The position numbers were made by a program, and so were the translations under genes. A DNA stretch of 32,722 nucleotides, taken from positions 1 to 32,722 of IMG/VR virus record IMGVR_UViG_3300033143_002584. One strand, given 5' to 3'. Below the pieces are notes generated by a model, which had not been told where the DNA came from, did not search any database, and saw nothing but the letters and a program-made list of their open reading frames with translations. Origin of the DNA: a virus. Shown here piece after piece: positions 3,854-32,722 of the stretch. Position 1 is the stretch's first letter. Every line of letters begins with the position of its first letter.

Positions 3854-6160
3854 TTGAGTATTAATAGAGAAATCGACATTGTCTATGATGTTAAAGGCAC
3901 GAAAGAGGCCACCAGAGATATTGAAAAGCTTAATAAAGCTATTGATAAAACTGGTGATGAAGCAAAAAAGACTTCAAAAGAGGTAGATAAATTAAATAAG
4001 TCTACAAAGAAAGCCTCTGTTGAGACAAAAGGTCTTAATGACAAGATGAAAGATAGTGCTGGCGCAGCTAAAGACAGCCTGAAGGGTTTCACTGAGATGA
4101 ACTCCCTCATGGGCGACCTTGCTGGTGCCGCTAAACTTCTTTCTGGTGTTGCATTATTTGATCTTGGTAAACAAATCTTTGATATGTCAAAAAAGATGTA
4201 TGATCTTGCTAACAATACTGGTGGTGCGAAGCGTGCAATTGCTGGTATTTCAAAAATAGCTTCAGCAGAGGCTAAGAGCCTTCAAGGTTTTGCTACATCT
4301 ATTGAGAAGATTATGTCCGCTACAGGCAAGGCTGTAAGATATGAACAATGGAAAGCTATTGAAGATGCAAAATTAAAATACCAATTGGCCCAAGTTGATA
4401 TGCTCACTGCATATAAAATTCGAAAAGAATTTACGGTCATGCAAAAAATAACAGGCCAGAAGTTTGCCCAAGCAGAAGCGCGGAAATTGGCTTCTGCTCA
4501 ATTCATCTCTGAGATAGGCCCAGGCGGTAAGCCGACAGGTAAAACCATTAAGTTCTATAACCAAGCATTGGTTGAAGAGGCAGCATTCCAAAAAAAGATG
4601 TTAGGTTTGCAACAGGACGCCTTCAATGAAGCGGGCCGAAATCTTACAGGATTAGAAAACGCCTCTTTTGAGTTATGGAAGGCGATGAAAAAGCTCACCG
4701 GGGAGAGTTATGGTCCAAAAGCGAAAAAGAAGGTTGAGACTTTCTCAAGCGAACTTCTAAATGCCGTCTTGGCCAGTGAAGCCTTGGCCACTGCAACAAT
4801 TGGTATAAGAGATGCGTTTTCTGATGCCAGAGAAGAACAAGCCCTCTATATTAGAAAAGCAAAAGAGTATGGCATTTCTGTAAAAGAATTAATGGCTTTG
4901 CAGGCAGACCCTCAAAGAAGATTCATCATTGGGAAAGAGGTGGTCTTTGATAGGCCCGGTGGAGAGTTTACTGGAGATCGTGATCTCTTGCAAGAGATGC
5001 TTGACTCAATGACTCAAAAACCACTGTCTCTGGATCTTATTATCGAAGAGATGAAAGCACTCGAACTAAAAGATGTTTCTGTTAAAGATTATTTAAAATT
5101 TAGACAGCAAGTAATCATGAAACAAGTATCTACTGCCCTTTCAGAATTGACTAGTGTTGGTGCAGATGCTGAACTAGTAAAGACAATGGCTGAACCGCAT
5201 GAAGCATTACTCTCGCGATTACTGCAAGAGAATCTTCAAGCGATTACAGACCCCAAGCTTCGAAAGCAAATGAGCGACGAGATATTTGAGGCTTACAAAG
5301 TCATACAGAAGGAAGTCGCAAGGAAGATGGACATAGAAAGAAAGACAGGCGGGGATCTGTCGGTTGATATAGTCACTGGTGCTCTTTCTATTTCCGCTCT
5401 TGGCTCTATGTCGAAACGTCTCGGCGGACCAGATTTGCTGCAACCCATAAAGACCGAGGAACAAGTTGTTAGGGGACTGATGAAGGATTTGCTGCCTGAA
5501 GACATAGGCAAAGGCTTTCTAGACTTTTTTGGGCCGTCTGTATCGAAGGGTTTTGATGCTGGGGCTGCCTTCCTCGATCAATTAACAGCCAAAAGGGCAG
5601 AATTCGAGGCAATCAAAGAACTTCAGGTCGATATTACCCAGATAAGCAAAGGTCTTAATATAGCTTCTGGTGGTATGAGTGCTTTCGCAAGTGCCTTGGG
5701 TGCTGCTGGTATTGCTGGCGAGAAAACTAGACGTGTTATGGCTGGCGTGAATGCTGCAATGATGGGTGCTAGGGCCGCAGAAGCTTATGCCGATGGCCTT
5801 TACTGGCTTGCAAACCCTTGGTACTTAGGTGGACCTAACCCTGCGCTTTCTGCAGCATCTTTTGCGGCCTCTGCAGCTTATGCTGGTAGTGCTGGCCTAT
5901 ATGGTTACGTTGCTGCAACTGGTGCTGGTGGTACTTCAGGAGGTGGCGGAAGCTCTGCTGGTACGACTTCTGCACCACCTTCCAGGCAAGAGTTTGATAA
6001 AGGCGATGAAGTTGGAGCCATGACGGTTAATATTGTTCAAGGTGGACAAGCTTTACATACCCAGCAAGACACGAGAAACCTTGTAATGTCAGCTTTTGAA
6101 GAGACGTTAGCCCAGAGAGGAAGTGGAGCAAGACGTAGAATCAGAACCGCCCTCCAGTAA
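3854..6160 (+). CDS. Tape measure protein
   Basis: The product is about 768 aa. I choose TTG at 3854 because GGAG (3843-3846) lies 7 bases upstream. TTG at 3839 in the same frame is possible but has only 2 bases after its GAGAGG. Residues 10-75 form a charged Lys/Asp/Glu coiled coil. A short hydrophobic stretch follows near 80-115. Long helical segments run through the middle. Residues 640-730 are Ala/Gly-rich and hydrophobic, ending in a run of glycines, as in tape measure proteins that contact membrane. No lysozyme or peptidase motif was seen. The protein sets tail length and probably enters the cell envelope on injection. Confidence 0.88.
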   Translation: MSINREIDIVYDVKGTKEATRDIEKLNKAIDKTGDEAKKTSKEVDKLNKSTKKASVETKGLNDKMKDSAGAAKDSLKGFTEMNSLMGDLAGAAKLLSGVALFDLGKQIFDMSKKMYDLANNTGGAKRAIAGISKIASAEAKSLQGFATSIEKIMSATGKAVRYEQWKAIEDAKLKYQLAQVDMLTAYKIRKEFTVMQKITGQKFAQAEARKLASAQFISEIGPGGKPTGKTIKFYNQALVEEAAFQKKMLGLQQDAFNEAGRNLTGLENASFELWKAMKKLTGESYGPKAKKKVETFSSELLNAVLASEALATATIGIRDAFSDAREEQALYIRKAKEYGISVKELMALQADPQRRFIIGKEVVFDRPGGEFTGDRDLLQEMLDSMTQKPLSLDLIIEEMKALELKDVSVKDYLKFRQQVIMKQVSTALSELTSVGADAELVKTMAEPHEALLSRLLQENLQAITDPKLRKQMSDEIFEAYKVIQKEVARKMDIERKTGGDLSVDIVTGALSISALGSMSKRLGGPDLLQPIKTEEQVVRGLMKDLLPEDIGKGFLDFFGPSVSKGFDAGAAFLDQLTAKRAEFEAIKELQVDITQISKGLNIASGGMSAFASALGAAGIAGEKTRRVMAGVNAAMMGARAAEAYADGLYWLANPWYLGGPNPALSAASFAASAAYAGSAGLYGYVAATGAGGTSGGGGSSAGTTSAPPSRQEFDKGDEVGAMTVNIVQGGQALHTQQDTRNLVMSAFEETLAQRGSGARRRIRTALQ

Positions 6161-15022: not shown

Positions 15023-15253
15023 TTATTTCTCCTCAATGTCAGAATCTTCAAGCTTCACACCCCACCATAGATCCCACCCGCATAATCGCATAAATGTCTC
15101 AACATCCTCGACAGTCCAGCCTTTACCATGCTCTAATCGTAAAACCTTATCTCGATGATGGCCTAATTGGGTGTCCAGCGCTACTTGGCTCAAGCCTTGC
15201 GAGAGTCTCCAAGCCTTTAGTCGTCGTCCTAGTTCGTCTTTAAGTGTTGACAT
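15023..15253 (-). CDS. XRE-type helix-turn-helix regulator
   Basis: The product has 76 aa. GGAG sits 6 bases before the ATG. Residues 6-45 form a Cro/CI-type HTH: 'RLKAWRLSQGLSQVALDTQLGHHRDKVLRLE', with the 'LSQ..LD..LG' helix and a recognition helix at 'HRDKVLRLE'. The C-terminus is short, with 'CGWDLWWGV', so there is no separate oligomerisation domain. It is a small DNA-binding regulator, either of this island or of the control region. Its promoter and leader share a 19-base sequence with the leader of the HNH gene at 20401, which suggests joint control. Confidence 0.75.
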   Translation of the reverse strand: MSTLKDELGRRLKAWRLSQGLSQVALDTQLGHHRDKVLRLEHGKGWTVEDVETFMRLCGWDLWWGVKLEDSDIEEK

Positions 15254-15259
15254 ATTCTA

Positions 15260-15309
15260 CTCCTTCTATGTCCTACACTCTAAATAGAATGTTCAAGATG
15301 TAGAAGCAA
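15260..15309 (-). promoter_or_regulatory. Promoter and conserved leader of the HTH gene
   Basis: Read on the minus strand: -35 TTGCTT (15304-15309), a 17-base spacer, -10 TATTTA (15281-15286), then GTGTAGGACATAGAAGGAG (15260-15278). The last 19 bases are identical to 20377-20395 in front of the HNH gene and include the SD. The -10 also lies inside TCTATTTAGA (15279-15288). The predicted mRNA would start near the GGACA. Confidence 0.6.
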
Positions 15310-17344: not shown

Positions 17345-17689
17345 AATGGTCGGGCGGAACCTGTAGTTTGTATTTTTCCTGGGGAGGGGTGATTTATATT
17401 GAACCTTTCAAAGTGCCTGCGAAGCTATTTTAGGTCGTCTTAGGGAGCATTTGGCGTCTTGGTTTGTTCAAGAAAGCTGGCTTCAGTTATTTTGAGCTGT
17501 TTCAGAAATTTCTCTTTAAAAACAGGTGGTTAGAGCTAGAAAAATGTTCCACTTACTTCGTTTTGTCTTAAAGTATAAACATAACAAAGTGGAACAAATA
17601 AAGTGCTCCCGCAGGCACTCCGACACCCTCCCCAGAACCTATCACAATCTCGTGTTCCGCTCCGAGCAGAAAAAAAGTGTAAACAACTG
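17345..17689. other. Gene-free control region with inverted repeats (possible origin)
   Basis: No ORF with an SD is seen here. TGTTCCACTT (17545-17554) and AAGTGGAACA (17587-17596) are perfect inverted 10-mers around an AT-rich core, and a third related TGTTCC lies near 17653. AGTGCCTGCG (17412-17421) and CGCAGGCACT (17610-17619) are another perfect inverted 10-mer. Divergent genes, the initiator-type helicase downstream and AT-rich spacers make it a candidate replication origin and operator region. Confidence 0.45.
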
Positions 17690-17718
17690 TTGACAAACCA
17701 CAGTGAGTGGACTATATT
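17690..17718 (+). promoter_or_regulatory. Strong sigma70 promoter of the small RNA
   Basis: TTGACA (17690-17695), a 17-base spacer, TATATT (17713-17718). This is the best consensus promoter in the window. The predicted start is near 17725, only about 55 bases before a terminator, with no start codon or SD for a protein between them. Confidence 0.8.
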
Positions 17719-17724
17719 AGATAT

Positions 17725-17780
17725 ACGAGGTCTTGGTCGTCCTCCTTTCTAGTGTCCGGTGAAAGCCGGCACTTTTTTTT
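17725..17780 (+). ncRNA. Predicted antisense small RNA with anti-SD segment
   Basis: The transcript of about 55 nt is bounded by a consensus promoter and a hairpin with eight Ts. The segment CCTCCTTTCTAGTGTCC (17741-17757) has the reverse complement GGACACTAGAAAGGAGG. That matches all 14 bases of GGACATAGAAGGAG in two distant leaders (15260-15273 minus; 20382-20395 plus) with two single-base bulges, and GGACACAAGGAG (17824-17835) of the next gene with one 4-base bulge. All three sites contain the SD. It is probably a translational regulator or immunity RNA. A mere attenuated leader is the alternative. Confidence 0.6.
17750..17780 (+). terminator. Rho-independent terminator of the small RNA
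   Basis: AGTG(T)CCGG pairs with CCGGCACT around a T-GAAA-G loop, with one bulged T, followed by eight Ts (17773-17780). It lies 60 bases before the Cro-like gene, so read-through transcripts would be limited. Confidence 0.8.
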
Positions 17781-17840
17781 GCTTAAATGAGGAACTTTCT
17801 GTGGTAGCATACTATATATAACAGGACACAAGGAGACATC

Positions 17841-18041
17841 ATGAACGCAGTTGAACAATACAGAGAAGACCACGGTTATACATTTACAGAGCTTTGTAAG
17901 AAACTCGGTTTCACTGTAAAATATTACCACATGTTGAGAACTGGATACCGCCCAGTATCTTACAAGATCTGCTTCAAGATTCAGGAAGCTACAAATCGAG
18001 AGATTCTAGCTGAAGAAGTAGGACCGGAACTTTACTGGTAA
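17841..18041 (+). CDS. Cro-like helix-turn-helix protein
   Basis: The product has 66 aa. AAGGAG precedes the ATG by 5 bases. Residues 5-50 fit a small Cro/YdaS-type HTH: 'YTFTELCKKLGFTVKYYHMLRTGYRPVSYKICFKIQEAT', with a 'GYRPVS..IC..I' turn typical of the phage regulators that follow an immunity region. It is the first gene of the rightward early operon, just after the small RNA. It probably binds the control region to switch early transcription. Its SD can pair with the small RNA in cis or in trans. A TATATA (17814-17819) may be a nearby -10. Confidence 0.75.
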   Translation: MNAVEQYREDHGYTFTELCKKLGFTVKYYHMLRTGYRPVSYKICFKIQEATNREILAEEVGPELYW

Positions 18042-18071
18042 TAGAAACTAAAAACAAAAGGATTACGACCA

Positions 18072-19922
18072 ATGATCACACTAACAAAAAATGAATACCT
18101 CCCAGCACTAGCTCCCCGAGCTAACACTATCCTACTCCTTCGCGCCGGCCTTGGCACTGGAAAGAGTGAGGCAACCATTGATTTCATGAAGAACGTTAAA
18201 TCTTCAGTGTCAATAGTTCCAAGAATCAGTTTAACTCATGACATTCTCAGAAGAATTGAGGAAAAAGGTTTAGACGTTGGACACTACAAAAACGTCGATG
18301 ACTCAAATAAGCCTCACCAAGTATACTGCACACCCAGCCTTCATAAATACGAAGGTCAACCCGAACTAATTTTCATTGATGAGGTACAGACCATCTTTGG
18401 CGGCTTATACCTCATGGACAAGGTAATGGATGCATCTGAGTGTTCAAGGCTGTTGGAGACGCTTACACGGCTCGCTAAGACGGCGAAATACGTAGTGCTA
18501 GCTGATGCTCACATGACAGACACGACGATTGAGCAAATTAAAGATGTATTTGGCACTGAAATAAGGTTTTTAGATGCTGAAAAGCCTTCTGAACTCGTTT
18601 ACTCACACTCCAGCTCTGAGATTGAGGTTGGTTTGTACGCTGAATCATTAATCAGAAAAGGCAAGAAGCTCTTTGTACCTTGCACAACTCTTACAAAGAC
18701 AAAAACGTTATCTGATTTATGGAGAGGCCAATTCCCAGAGAAGAATATCTTGGTTCTCAATAGCGCCACATCCCCGAATTTAAAAAAGAGAGCTATGGCA
18801 AATCTCACCAAATATACTCGCGAGAACAACATCGATATCTTGATTGCCAGCCCTACAGTTTCATCTGGTGTATCACTAGATGGTCAATGGTTCCACGAGA
18901 CAGTAGGCTTTTGTCGCGCTGGCGGTGTTACAGCCCTAGAATTTCTTCAACAGTTGGGTCGTGTGCGCCATCCAATTGACGGTCGTGTCAGTTTTTATGT
19001 TGACGGTGGTGGCAAGAACAAGACTATGGTACTTCGTGAGATTGGAAAAGAGGTTAAGGCCACACCATTATATAACCTCGCATTCGGCGAAAAGAAGACA
19101 GATACGGACAGATTAGCCGATGTCACCTTTGTCCATAACAAATCTCAACAAAGAGCTTTAGGCGGCGACGGCTGCAGAATCGTTGAGCCACTACTAGAGC
19201 GTATTAATTCCTTTGAGTTAGGTTTTAAATTCACAGAAGATCATAAAAAAGCTCACACAAAGATGAGCAATGCCTCAAAAGCTTTTAGTAAAACTGTCAC
19301 GATTAATGAAATTATGGGAGCAAGGGTTATTAAATTTGACTACAACTTCCAGCCAACGACGAAAGAAGCCAAATTAGCTCACATGCGCTCCCTCATTCAG
19401 TATCGATATGGCAAAGTAACACTTGATACAATCAAAGATAGTCTGACTTACGCTGGTTGGGAGCAAACAACCCGAACAGCTTACCTATCATTAGGTCTAG
19501 ACGGTATCAAGAAAGCTGTTGATAAGAGCTGGGCTGACATGAAATACATTACTTGTGTCAGTGAAATCCCTAAATTCCAAGAAGAATTGTATGTTATTTG
19601 GAATCTTTTGGAATCTGCACACAGAAACCCCTTCCCAGGAGGAACCAATACTAGTGCCAGAGATGAGAGCGGTTACAAAAATGTTGTGAAATACTACAAG
19701 AAAAACAAAAAACTGCTTGACTCACTAGATCTTAAGATGACTAAGTCCATTCCGAGATACATTACCAAGATTTTAAAGAAACTTGGTATGAGTCAGAGTA
19801 GTAAAAAAGTAAGAATTGGCGATAAGCTCGTAAATACCTACCAACTTGATATGAAATCATTCGAAAAAAGAACTGACCTAGCTGAAAAAGCTATTGAAAA
19901 ACTAAAAGGAAAGAAACTATGA
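18072..19922 (+). CDS. Origin-binding-type superfamily 2 DNA helicase (replication initiator)
   Basis: The product has 616 aa. AAAAGGA precedes the ATG. Residues 26-32 form Walker A (G-L-G-T-G-K-S). 'VPRISLTH' (49-56) is motif Ia. D103-E-V-Q is motif II. 'ADAHMT' (near 148) is motif III. 'SPTVSSGVSLDG' (near 260) is motif V and 'QQLGRVRH' (near 300) is motif VI. This pattern resembles origin-binding helicases of the herpesvirus UL9 type found in some phages and plasmids. The C-terminal half (350-616) is basic and probably binds DNA. With no polymerase or primase-helicase in the genome, it is the likely initiator that opens the origin and recruits host enzymes. It overlaps the next gene by ATGA. 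Confidence 0.8.
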   Translation: MITLTKNEYLPALAPRANTILLLRAGLGTGKSEATIDFMKNVKSSVSIVPRISLTHDILRRIEEKGLDVGHYKNVDDSNKPHQVYCTPSLHKYEGQPELIFIDEVQTIFGGLYLMDKVMDASECSRLLETLTRLAKTAKYVVLADAHMTDTTIEQIKDVFGTEIRFLDAEKPSELVYSHSSSEIEVGLYAESLIRKGKKLFVPCTTLTKTKTLSDLWRGQFPEKNILVLNSATSPNLKKRAMANLTKYTRENNIDILIASPTVSSGVSLDGQWFHETVGFCRAGGVTALEFLQQLGRVRHPIDGRVSFYVDGGGKNKTMVLREIGKEVKATPLYNLAFGEKKTDTDRLADVTFVHNKSQQRALGGDGCRIVEPLLERINSFELGFKFTEDHKKAHTKMSNASKAFSKTVTINEIMGARVIKFDYNFQPTTKEAKLAHMRSLIQYRYGKVTLDTIKDSLTYAGWEQTTRTAYLSLGLDGIKKAVDKSWADMKYITCVSEIPKFQEELYVIWNLLESAHRNPFPGGTNTSARDESGYKNVVKYYKKNKKLLDSLDLKMTKSIPRYITKILKKLGMSQSSKKVRIGDKLVNTYQLDMKSFEKRTDLAEKAIEKLKGKKL

Positions 19923-20341: not shown

Positions 20342-20395
20342 TTGAGTGCTTTTGACTTTTGAGTATGCTATTTAAGGTGTAGGACATAGAAGGAG
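20342..20395 (+). promoter_or_regulatory. Promoter and conserved leader of the HNH gene
   Basis: Two readings are possible: TTGAGT (20342-20347), 16 bases, TATGCT (20364-20369); or GTGCTT (20346-20351), 17 bases, TATTTA (20369-20374), which matches the HTH gene promoter at 15.3 kb. GTGTAGGACATAGAAGGAG (20377-20395) is identical to the leader at 15260-15278 and complementary to the predicted small RNA. Confidence 0.65.
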
Positions 20396-20400
20396 ACAAA

Positions 20401-20832
20401 ATGACCACTACAAACCAAAAAGACACCAAGCACTGCTCGGACTGCAAACAAGATCTACCGCTAGAAAATTTCAGCAAGAACCGAGCTAAAAAGGACGGCC
20501 TTCAAAATCAATGTAAAGTTTGTAATAATAACCGAAGGCTTGGTCGTAAAGAAGAAATTGCAAAGTACATGCGACTCTACCGCTTAAGGCCTCTGCAAGC
20601 TCACAAAATTAAATTTCGTAATGCTGCAGCCACTGCTCGTAATAAAGGATTGATTCTCGTAGAAGAGTGTGCTCACTGTGAGGCTACTGACGACCTACAG
20701 ATTCATCACCTGGACTACAGTGATGGTCAAGAGTTGAATGTTATTGTACTCTGCCGCCACTGCCATAAGAAAGAGCACAGAGTTGGACCAGCTATTCTAG
20801 TTCCTGCAAGGTTTTTAACTGATGATCATTAA
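20401..20832 (+). CDS. HNH endonuclease with N-terminal zinc ribbon
   Basis: The product has 143 aa. AGAAGGAG precedes the ATG. Residues 11-46 form a CxxC...CxxC zinc ribbon ('KHCSDC', 'NQCKVC') followed by a basic linker. Residues 95-130 form an HNH nuclease: C-A-H-C, then 'IHHLDY' (catalytic His pair), 'ELNVIVLC' (Asn) and 'RHCHKKEH' (last His). Such small HNH proteins act as homing, restriction-like or packaging-linked nucleases. It lies in the early region, not next to the terminase, so a role in host DNA attack or homing is more likely. The zinc ribbon is nearly duplicated in the protein at 21685. It overlaps the next gene by 11 bases. Confidence 0.8.
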   Translation: MTTTNQKDTKHCSDCKQDLPLENFSKNRAKKDGLQNQCKVCNNNRRLGRKEEIAKYMRLYRLRPLQAHKIKFRNAAATARNKGLILVEECAHCEATDDLQIHHLDYSDGQELNVIVLCRHCHKKEHRVGPAILVPARFLTDDH

Positions 20833-21684: not shown

Positions 21685-22359
21685 ATGTCCAACACAACCA
21701 AGAAATGCAGTCAGTGCGAATTAGCTTTAACACTAGACCACTTCAATAAGAACAAGGCGAAGGCCGATGGCCTACAGAATAATTGCAGAGATTGTGATAA
21801 GGCATACCGTAACGCTCGTCAAGACGTTGGGCTCTGGAGAGATATTGCGGTTGTAATCAACGTCGATGAAGCCAAAGCAGTATATGGGTTTGGATCATCA
21901 TCTGACACCTTCGCTGATATTCCTACTAGAATTATGTTCCATCAAGGCGAATTCAGTCTAGATCAGGCCTTTAAAAATGCTTTATGGGCGAATCATAAAG
22001 TACACGAAGAAAGAGAAAAGCTTTCTGTCATCACTTCTATTTTAAATCAACATGATTATGACACTGCTTTCCTTTCTTATTTTGCTTACACTAAAGAGAT
22101 TAAGAAACTCTTAGTTGATGCTGGTATCGATGTGATCGTTGAATATGGTATTGCTTCAACTGCACCAAACAACACGACCCAGAAGATGATTTGGTTGGGC
22201 AAACAAAAAGGCGAAACCCCTTCGGTAGTATTCAAAATGCAACAGGATTGGACTCTCACTTCTAAATTGGTAGGAGACCGTGTTGAATCTGAGATGAGAA
22301 TCCTTGGAGATTTTGTAGTAAACCCTGGATCAGATTGTATCGCACTGTCTTTTTGTTGA
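21685..22359 (+). CDS. Zinc-ribbon protein of unknown function (HNH-less paralogue)
   Basis: The product has 224 aa. ACAGGAG precedes the ATG. Residues 7-40 ('KKCSQC', 'HFNKNKAKADGLQ', 'NCRDC') are nearly the same zinc ribbon as in the HNH protein at 20401. The remaining 180 residues lack the HNH signature and form an unrecognised alpha/beta domain with strands 'IAVVINVDEA', 'GIDVIVEYGIA' and 'TTQKMIWLG'. The ribbon may serve as a shared DNA- or host-factor-docking module with a different effector. It has its own strong promoter and is the last gene of the rightward early block. Confidence 0.65.
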   Translation: MSNTTKKCSQCELALTLDHFNKNKAKADGLQNNCRDCDKAYRNARQDVGLWRDIAVVINVDEAKAVYGFGSSSDTFADIPTRIMFHQGEFSLDQAFKNALWANHKVHEEREKLSVITSILNQHDYDTAFLSYFAYTKEIKKLLVDAGIDVIVEYGIASTAPNNTTQKMIWLGKQKGETPSVVFKMQQDWTLTSKLVGDRVESEMRILGDFVVNPGSDCIALSFC

Positions 22360-26230: not shown

Positions 26231-27628
26231 ATGGCAAATTATACCGACACAGAACAAAAAGAACTCGAAGTATTGCAGGTAACAGGCGAGAAACCTGAAG
26301 CTAGTGATCCTGTTGAGATTAGAGGTGTCTCTGGCACACCACTCAACGCATCTTTCAATCCTCTTGAGCTAAACCCAGCTCTAATTGGAAGCTATGCTTG
26401 GACCCGTACAGTCAGAGAAATGCTTTTAGACCCAGCTATCTCTTCAACATGGTCAGCTCTTAAGGGTACATTGCTATCAGCTAAGTATGACTGGCTATCA
26501 GCAGAGCCTGGAGACCCAGAAGCTGATAAGTATGCTGAATATGCTAAAGATATGTGGAATAGAATGGACGTTCCTTGGGAACAACAGTTACAATACATTC
26601 TAGAATATCTTAATGTTGGCTTTCGCTATGCTGAAATCCTTTACAAGACAGAAGATGGTAAGATTTATATTCGTAACTTTGCAGACAGAGAACCCTCTTC
26701 ACATAGTCGCTGGGTAAGAGAGCCTGATAATGGCACTCTAGTGGCCGTTACACAGAACGCAGGGCTTGGTGCTCGTATTCCGAAGCCTATGCCTGCCTCT
26801 AAGCTTTTACTGCTCACTAACAGCCTTACAGGACAGAACTTTGCTGGCGTTGGTCTACTTCGTCCTCTATATAAGTCCTGGAAATTAAAGAACCATTGTA
26901 TCAATCAAATTGGTATTGGTGCTCAACGCTGGTCAACCCCTTTACTTGCAGTTGATGTTGATCGCTCTAAGATGGCCGAACTCAACTATTCTGCCGAGCA
27001 AATTGATGAGGCTGTACGCTCTGCTAAGGCGGAAGCACAAGCCTATGTATCAATGGAGCAAGGATACGTTGTAAGGACGCCTGCTGTTGGTTATAGCATC
27101 ATTGATGGAACTACACCGGCTGCAAATGGCATTGGAGAGCTAAGAGAAGTCATCACTATGATGAACAATGAAATCTTTACTTCTATGCTTGTCCAGTTCC
27201 TTACACTGGGAACAAGTGATAGCGGCTCTCGTGGCGTATCAGAGACAATGGAAACTTTCTTCAGGCGTGCAGCTATCAACTACCTTGACAATGTTGTCGG
27301 TACAATTAACGGCCCAGCACGTCCTGGTGGTGGCGTTATTGGAAGATTGCTAGACTTTAACTTCTCTAATGTTGATCAGTCTAAGCTACCGAAACTAATC
27401 CACTCTGGGCTGGACATTGAGCCTGTCACTGCGTACCTTAACCAGCTCGGCAGTCTAGTTAGAGATGAATTGATTACAAAGTCTGCTGATCTCGAAACCT
27501 CAATTCGCAAGGCTATCGGCCTCGAACAGCTTCAGATTGAAGAACAAGCTGCAATCATCGAAGCCGAAGACAATCCATCAGTAGCATATATTAAGCCAGA
27601 GCCAGAAGAGGAAGACGATAATGCCTAA
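26231..27628 (+). CDS. Portal protein (DUF935 / Mu gp29-like)
   Basis: The product has 465 aa. AGAGGT precedes the ATG. The early segment 'LLDPAISSTWSALKGTLLSAKYDW' and the middle 'YLNVGFRYAEILYK' with 'NSLTGQNFAGVGLLRPLYKSW' are typical of the Mu gp29/DUF935 portal family. A long helical C-terminal half follows. Portal dodecamers form the DNA entry channel and bind terminase. It overlaps the protease/scaffold gene by 8 bases. The acidic C-terminus ('EPEEEDDNA') is normal for this class. Confidence 0.88.
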   Translation: MANYTDTEQKELEVLQVTGEKPEASDPVEIRGVSGTPLNASFNPLELNPALIGSYAWTRTVREMLLDPAISSTWSALKGTLLSAKYDWLSAEPGDPEADKYAEYAKDMWNRMDVPWEQQLQYILEYLNVGFRYAEILYKTEDGKIYIRNFADREPSSHSRWVREPDNGTLVAVTQNAGLGARIPKPMPASKLLLLTNSLTGQNFAGVGLLRPLYKSWKLKNHCINQIGIGAQRWSTPLLAVDVDRSKMAELNYSAEQIDEAVRSAKAEAQAYVSMEQGYVVRTPAVGYSIIDGTTPAANGIGELREVITMMNNEIFTSMLVQFLTLGTSDSGSRGVSETMETFFRRAAINYLDNVVGTINGPARPGGGVIGRLLDFNFSNVDQSKLPKLIHSGLDIEPVTAYLNQLGSLVRDELITKSADLETSIRKAIGLEQLQIEEQAAIIEAEDNPSVAYIKPEPEEEDDNA

Positions 27629-31784: not shown

Positions 31785-32722
31785 ATGTCACACGAAATTA
31801 AAATTCAGTCAGCTGCGGATAGACTATATGAATGGCTGTCACCATTACCTTTAAAGATTAGTGCTGTTCCAACATTAGCTCTTGACCATAAAGATGTGGC
31901 CACTGTTGCTCCAGTACTTGTGCCTATTGCTGCAGATGGTACAGTTTCTTCTATTGATAGAGATTCTGTAACACTTACACTGTCAGCTCCTATCGCTAAT
32001 GACGATGGCGTTCAAGGGGCAATGGGCGAAGCATGGCTTATAACGGCAGAGGATGGCCATTACAGCGTTCGTGTTAAGCGTTTGGATGGTACACAGGTAA
32101 TCCTTGCTGAGCCTCTTCCTACACTACCCAGCATGACTTCTGCGGCTACTCTACAATTCAGAAGGTTTAAAACAACCTTAACTTCACTTGCTGTAACTGG
32201 AATAGAGCGCAGAAACTGGACTTCTACTGTAAGCTATGTAAGTCAGTACGGTGCTGACACCCCAGAAATGCCTTTGACAGACCAAAGCTTAATGCACGTT
32301 GTTAGACAACCCTTTGACACTGGCTTAACCTCTGAAAACCTTGTTCAATACTTCCCTGACCTTAGTGATAATATCCCTGCTCGTCAGCAAGACTTCAAGC
32401 CTCAGATTGATCGTGCTCTTTGGACAATGATTTTTAACATTCGTAAGCAAATGCGAGATAATTCTTGCAGCAAATACGAAGATGATGTTGGTGGCGGCAC
32501 TTTAGCTCAAGCACATGCCTATCTTGTGGCGGCGTTGCTCTATCAGATCAGAGACACAGAGCTTTCTGCTGTCCTTATGGGCCGCTACAATGAAATCTTA
32601 GAAGAGTCATTGATGTCTGTATGGGTAGATTGTAATGGTGATGGCGAGCCTGACGAAGATGAGGTCGGTCCTTTGCCTGTCAGTACAGTGGATACAAGCA
32701 ATTACTTTGCTACAAATGGGTT
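31785..32722 (+). CDS. Head-tail adaptor-like protein, N-terminal part (continues at 1-148)
   Basis: The reading frame starts at ATG 31785 (AGAGGAT precedes it), runs off the right end and resumes at the left end to stop at 148, giving 323 aa. The N-terminal 150 residues are beta-rich ('VTLTLSAPIANDDG', 'HYSVRVKRLDGTQVILAEPL'). The middle ('QIDRALWTMIFNIRKQMRD', 'LAQAHAYLVAALLYQIRD') is helical like adaptor/connector proteins that dock under the portal. Near the C-terminus (32628-32663) it has a canonical EF-hand-like calcium loop. Its role is inferred from gene order: capsid genes before it, neck and tail terminator after it. Confidence 0.7.
   Translation, partial: MSHEIKIQSAADRLYEWLSPLPLKISAVPTLALDHKDVATVAPVLVPIAADGTVSSIDRDSVTLTLSAPIANDDGVQGAMGEAWLITAEDGHYSVRVKRLDGTQVILAEPLPTLPSMTSAATLQFRRFKTTLTSLAVTGIERRNWTSTVSYVSQYGADTPEMPLTDQSLMHVVRQPFDTGLTSENLVQYFPDLSDNIPARQQDFKPQIDRALWTMIFNIRKQMRDNSCSKYEDDVGGGTLAQAHAYLVAALLYQIRDTELSAVLMGRYNEILEESLMSVWVDCNGDGEPDEDEVGPLPVSTVDTSNYFATNG
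32609..32722. repeat. Right copy of the 114-bp terminal direct repeat
   Basis: Identical to bases 1-114. The reading frame of the adaptor gene agrees across the junction, so joining the ends restores an intact gene. The unique genome length is 32608 bp. Confidence 0.95.

Follow-up and report, generated by a model that had tools for sequence, protein, structure and literature searches.

Genomic context of the predicted small RNA

The window analysed is the entire IMG/VR virus record IMGVR_UViG_3300033143_002584, 32,722 nt in length. It ends in an exact terminal direct repeat of 114 nt (positions 1-114 and 32609-32722 of the window), and this repeat makes it probable that the record represents a complete, circular or circularly permuted genome of about 32.6 kb. 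The gene content includes a Mu-type portal, the large and small terminase subunits, a major head protein and three tRNAs. Searches of parts of the phage, IMG/VR and GTDB genomes found no close relative of this phage, either through the RepA, Cro, portal, TerL or MCP proteins or through the RNA sequence or DNA similarity. The RepA relatives present in IMG/VR are only 22-28% identical.

The predicted small RNA lies in a 500-nt intergenic gap that separates leftward genes (start 17314) from a rightward operon comprising a Cro-like HTH_3 gene, the gene of a 616-aa helicase and then a small protein gene. The helicase gene has tblastn matches in N15, phiHAP-1 and CyRepA1 plasmids. Inside this gap no gene is evident between 17345 and 17690 (345 nt), where several inverted repeats occur, among them TGTTCCACTT/AAGTGGAACA at 17545-17596; a replication origin or operators could lie there. 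The features of the locus are the following:

17690..17718, + strand: small-RNA promoter, TTGACA-17-TATATT (11/12 consensus matches, joint best in the genome)
17725..17780, + strand: predicted small RNA of about 54 nt (promoter and terminator; two-hairpin fold, z -3.0)
17727..17744, + strand: 5´ hairpin GAGG...CCTC presenting the loop UUGGUC (minimum-energy and centroid folds agree)
17751..17780, + strand: intrinsic terminator, hairpin and eight Ts (only T>=7 run on the + strand)
17841..18041, + strand: Cro-like HTH_3 protein of 66 aa, first gene of the replication operon (Pfam HTH_3, 1.3e-5)
18072..19922, + strand: replication helicase of 616 aa, N15 RepA / CyRepA1 / Herpes_ori_bp type (PF02399, 1e-14; phrog_4913, 4e-29)

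The predicted small RNA gene

The original prediction described a TTGACA-17-TATATT promoter followed by about 55 bases and a hairpin with eight Ts, and the analysis agrees on each of these elements. Only two sigma-70 matches in the whole genome score 11/12, one of them being 17690-17718. The terminator hairpin (17751-17773) begins about 35 nt past the -10 box and is followed by TTTTTTTT, with no other T>=7 run on the + strand of the genome. The 5´ end of the RNA (about 17725) was placed approximately 7 nt past the -10 box, and the pairing energies are almost independent of the exact start.

The 56-nt RNA folds better than its shuffles (z -3.0), and the predicted fold consists of the 5´ hairpin with the loop UUGGUC, a free linker (CUUUCUA) and the terminator. 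All of the sequence hallmarks of an intrinsically terminated small RNA gene are present, namely a sigma-70-like promoter, a short RNA, and a hairpin with a U-tract, with no ORF. A coding explanation for 17725-17780 was rejected, as an ORF with a usable SD is absent. None of the 4227 Rfam models matches the RNA at the gathering score, and none is credible at E up to 10. Judged by these features, the small RNA gene is very likely real, and the phage probably produces from it a terminated transcript of about 54 nt immediately ahead of the replication gene.

Complementarity to the translation start of the replication gene

The main predicted target of the RNA, which the original prediction did not name, lies 280 nt downstream of it, at the start of the helicase gene:

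17729..17748, + strand: segment of the RNA pairing with the translation start of the replication gene (GGTC, TTGGTCGT, TCCTTT; from cofold and shuffles)
18057..18077, + strand: main predicted target, comprising the SD AAAGGA, the spacer, the start codon and the second codon of the replication gene (18 bp, net -17.2 kcal/mol)

The helicase start site reads AAAGGA TT ACGACCAA T GATC, with the start codon beginning at 18072, and the pairing segment of the RNA reads GGTC TTGGTCGT CC TCCTTT. The 18 predicted pairs are formed mainly by the loop and linker of the RNA, leaving the terminator intact, and they include an exact 8-mer complement outside the SD. Net energies were taken from cofolding, in which both RNAs are allowed to fold, instead of from a raw duplex scan of the full RNA, which is misleading because it opens the terminator stem.

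By this measure, the helicase start ranks first among 38 gene starts (net -17.2 kcal/mol), and its net energy ranges from -17.2 to -21.8 kcal/mol across RNA starts from 17722 to 17730. The value of -17.2 is reached by 0.1% of dinucleotide-shuffled helicase leaders (p 0.001), or by 0.4% when the SD is kept (p 0.004), and by none of 400 structure-matched shuffled RNAs on the helicase gene. When the best of all 38 genes is considered, 4.3% of the structure-matched shuffled RNAs reach it, as do 40% of dinucleotide-shuffled RNAs without structure matching. As a prediction, the helicase pairing can be rated good for a neighbouring prior candidate and borderline for a genome-wide discovery.

An argument independent of the energy and shuffle figures comes from the position of the complementarity. 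When the 700 nt upstream of the helicase start were scanned, its best complement was exactly the RNA bounded by the promoter and the terminator (z -3.7). This was the strongest value among the loci compared, the repA regions of N15 and phiHAP-1 included. Among 147 intergenic windows, the best complement to the helicase start was likewise found on the RNA.

Other complementary sites in the genome

On both genome strands, only two non-self sites score above the helicase start. The best of all non-self sites is located inside the XRE-type HTH gene:

15209..15235, - strand: second predicted target, codons ~6-15 of the XRE-type HTH gene (best non-self genome site, -18.7 kcal/mol, 22 pairs; shuffle p 0.0015)

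These codons are near the start codon and may constitute a second target. A site at 6113 (-17.7 kcal/mol) and the start of a structural gene at 27621 (-15.1 kcal/mol) score nearly as well as the helicase site or better, so energies of this size do occur by chance. The RNA is also strongly complementary to 18161-18183, that is, repA codons 30-38 (Walker A region), a stretch preferred in the cis fold of a longer transcript.

Proposed mechanism and alternative explanations

A role of the small RNA against the replication gene is likely on the grounds of this complementarity, with the blocking of the translation start as its most likely mechanism. The locus would use a strong promoter of its own to make a short terminated RNA of about 54 nt, in the same orientation as the Cro-like and helicase genes and directly upstream of them. 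Its 5´ loop (UUGGUCGU) and single-stranded linker (UCCUUU) would pair with the helicase mRNA start AAAGGA..ACGACCAA.GAUC. This loop-linear pairing would hide the SD and the start codon, so that ribosome binding and translation of the helicase would be blocked. The RNA loop contains UUGG, a sequence of the YUNR type, and such motifs are believed to accelerate antisense pairing (Franch et al., cited in PMC4485353).

With many phage copies, abundant RNA would keep initiator synthesis low; alternatively, the RNA could provide replication immunity. If transcription continued past the terminator, the same RNA sequence could pair with the helicase start in cis. The computed evidence covers the promoter and terminator, the RNA fold and the complementarity, and from it we infer that the RNA is expressed from this start site, represses the gene and may serve in copy-number control, timing or immunity. 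The full proposal, a same-strand antisense-like RNA repressing the replication gene by covering its translation start, is given an even chance of being right.

Because it immediately precedes the cro-repA operon in the same orientation, the RNA could also be an attenuated leader of this operon. In that case the terminator would limit transcription into cro and repA, an antiterminator or read-through signal would open it, and the repA pairing would be either a cis interaction or incidental. The predicted folding of a read-through transcript onto the repA start fits this explanation: in a transcript reaching 18110, the same helix is predicted in cis, with 16-17 of the 18 pairs expected. In a longer one reaching 18200 the cis helix shifts to repA codons 30-38, which counts against the main proposal. 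Such a read-through design is known in IsrK of Gifsy-1 (PMC4825925). However, TATATA directly ahead of the Cro leader may be a separate -10, suggesting that the operon has its own promoter; the eight-T terminator looks strong, and no element of antitermination type was recognised. An attenuated leader is rather unlikely on balance.

A lower probability is assigned to a short terminated transcript without any phage-gene target, either directed to the host or a by-product, with a repA complementarity produced by chance together with SD/anti-SD similarity. This would agree with the borderline genome-wide significance, 4% to 40% depending on the null used, and with the fact that no conservation could be shown, as no close relative was found. 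Nevertheless, the match falls on the adjoining replication gene, over the SD and the start codon, and includes the 8-mer outside the SD, with a repA-specific p of about 0.001-0.004.

Leaders of the HTH, HNH and Cro-like genes

It was originally proposed that one antisense RNA, acting in trans, represses the leaders of the HTH, Cro and HNH genes together through GGACA...AAGGAG. These leaders are the following:

15260..15273, - strand: HTH leader GGACATAGAAGGAG (present; net pairing 0.0 kcal/mol; leader self-pairs)
20382..20395, + strand: HNH leader GGACATAGAAGGAG (net -10.9 kcal/mol, p 0.12-0.14)
17824..17835, + strand: leader of the Cro-like gene, GGACACAAGGAG (net -8.7 kcal/mol, p 0.24-0.44)

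The described complementarities do exist, with 17741-17757 being the reverse complement of GGACACTAGAAAGGAGG, and both the leader sequences and their coordinates are correct. The leaders probably start at or near GGACA, so the RNA would span them whole. Furthermore, the HNH pairing can be extended into AUGACC, and the HTH gene has its second, stronger site at codons 6-15. Against this, the cofold comparison with shuffled sequence placed none of the three leaders beyond chance: against leaders shuffled everywhere except in the SD, p was 0.12 (HNH), 0.44 (Cro) and 1.0 (HTH). Pairing to the SD alone is expected, since every SD resembles the complement of CCUCCUUU. When sites in the genome are ranked by the raw duplex energy of 17739-17757, HNH is 6th, Cro 18th and HTH 22nd, with the RNA's own complement counted as 1st.

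To pair with the leaders, the RNA would also have to open part of its terminator stem and its 5´ hairpin, as the proposed antisense stretch has GTG.CC within the former and CCTC within the latter, and the HTH leader folds on itself (GACATA...TATGTC). In addition, the two identical leaders come from one duplicated element: the HTH and HNH leaders are parts of a single 49-nt repeat that includes their promoters, and they do not count as independent targets or evidence for this reason. The similarity between them can be explained without any RNA. Coordinate repression of the three leaders is accordingly placed among the improbable explanations. For the original proposal of a ~55-nt antisense RNA, the sequence gives good support to a short terminated transcript with an antisense function, but not to the list of targets, which pair no better than SD-containing shuffled leaders (p 0.12-1.0). 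Control of the HTH gene, lost at its leader (0.0 kcal/mol), may survive through the different site at codons 6-15. There is only a slim chance that one 54-nt RNA carries two pairing modules, one for the repA start (loop and linker) and another for HTH codons 6-15 and the HTH/HNH SD leaders, in which case phage copy number would determine both replication and the expression of early genes, with no protein repressor involved.

The two copies of the 49-nt promoter-leader element, 15260-15308 (-) and 20347-20395 (+), are 80% identical (CTATTTA..GTGTAGGACATAGAAGGAG). They possibly represent a single operator class, and a further, weaker copy is seen in the leader at 21685 (GAGACATGAACAGGAG). The leader motif GGACATAGAAGGAGN5ATG has three matches in IMG/VR, with unrelated reading frames behind them, which is no more than expected by chance. 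The genes at 20401-20832 and 21685-22359 are HNH/endonuclease VII-like and have a similar N-terminal zinc-ribbon-like region; the HNH part is apparently present only in the former.

Comparison with known regulatory RNAs

The c4 RNA of P1/P7 is a short same-strand phage RNA located upstream of its target, with imperfect pairing over the translation start, and it arises by processing instead of through a terminator of its own. Similarly, the RNA described here is encoded upstream of a translation start on the same strand and is complementary to it (17729-17748 with 18057-18077). However, the c4 target is the antirepressor operon (icd/ant), whereas the target here would be a RepA/CyRepA1-type helicase, and the RNA has its own terminator and no Rfam model match. 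In the P1/P7 system, Ant is regulated by the C4 antisense RNA and Icd (PMC8201110). The P4 CI RNA offers another parallel, as a short phage RNA paired to the leader of its own replication operon. It is processed from a longer transcript and brings about transcription termination via seqA and seqC (PMC4825925), while the RNA here has, by sequence, its own promoter and terminator and a predicted pairing over the translation start.

Among plasmids, RNAII of pMV158 is an RNA of ~50 nt with an intrinsic terminator that blocks translation of the initiator, in a CopG-RepB operon where the small repressor gene comes first (PMC4485353). The RNA predicted here is of similar size and also has an intrinsic terminator, and it is complementary to a rep start behind a small repressor gene, which it is predicted to inhibit. 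In contrast, RNAII is encoded on the opposite strand and is fully complementary, and the present RNA is on the same (+) strand as repA and imperfectly complementary. The asRNA1 of pSYSA is also located upstream of CyRepA1, and is complementary to the coding sequence of a small gene (PMC9978351). In pSYSA, as predicted here, a CyRepA1-type replication gene that follows a small gene is under RNA control from upstream, but asRNA1 is 153 nt long and on the opposite strand, compared with ~54 nt and the same strand here.

IsrK of the Gifsy-1 prophage is a terminated small RNA heading a phage operon, with read-through and pairing within its own operon (PMC4825925). The same arrangement at the operon head is found here, with read-through and in-operon pairing as predictions; IsrK activates translation, whereas the RNA here is predicted to block it. 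The best reading of these comparisons is that the RNA would work like P1 c4 or pMV158 RNAII and be a member of neither family, because it has no Rfam match, its target is not an antirepressor and it is not on the opposite strand. A phage RNA of the same design against a RepA/CyRepA1-type gene was not found in the literature searched, which covers the field incompletely.

If repression through the helicase translation start is true, this otherwise unrelated phage would rely on a tiny RNA from the same strand to control its replication initiator, combining the principle of the antisense RNAs that set plasmid copy number with that of the RNAs behind phage immunity. Such a design is compact and makes a clear pairing prediction. 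It would also point to similar RNAs ahead of phage replication genes that stay unannotated because no RNA family matches them. In the upstream regions of the IMG/VR RepA relatives, no general complement to the repA start was detected, and the arrangement proposed here was not seen in distant RepA relatives, which weighs against the proposal. Many N15-type repA genes (loci L012, L018-L024, L041-L046 and others) carry a hairpin directly before the SD, e.g. TTGCGTTTTTACGCAAGGGG, which is perhaps a separate translational control.
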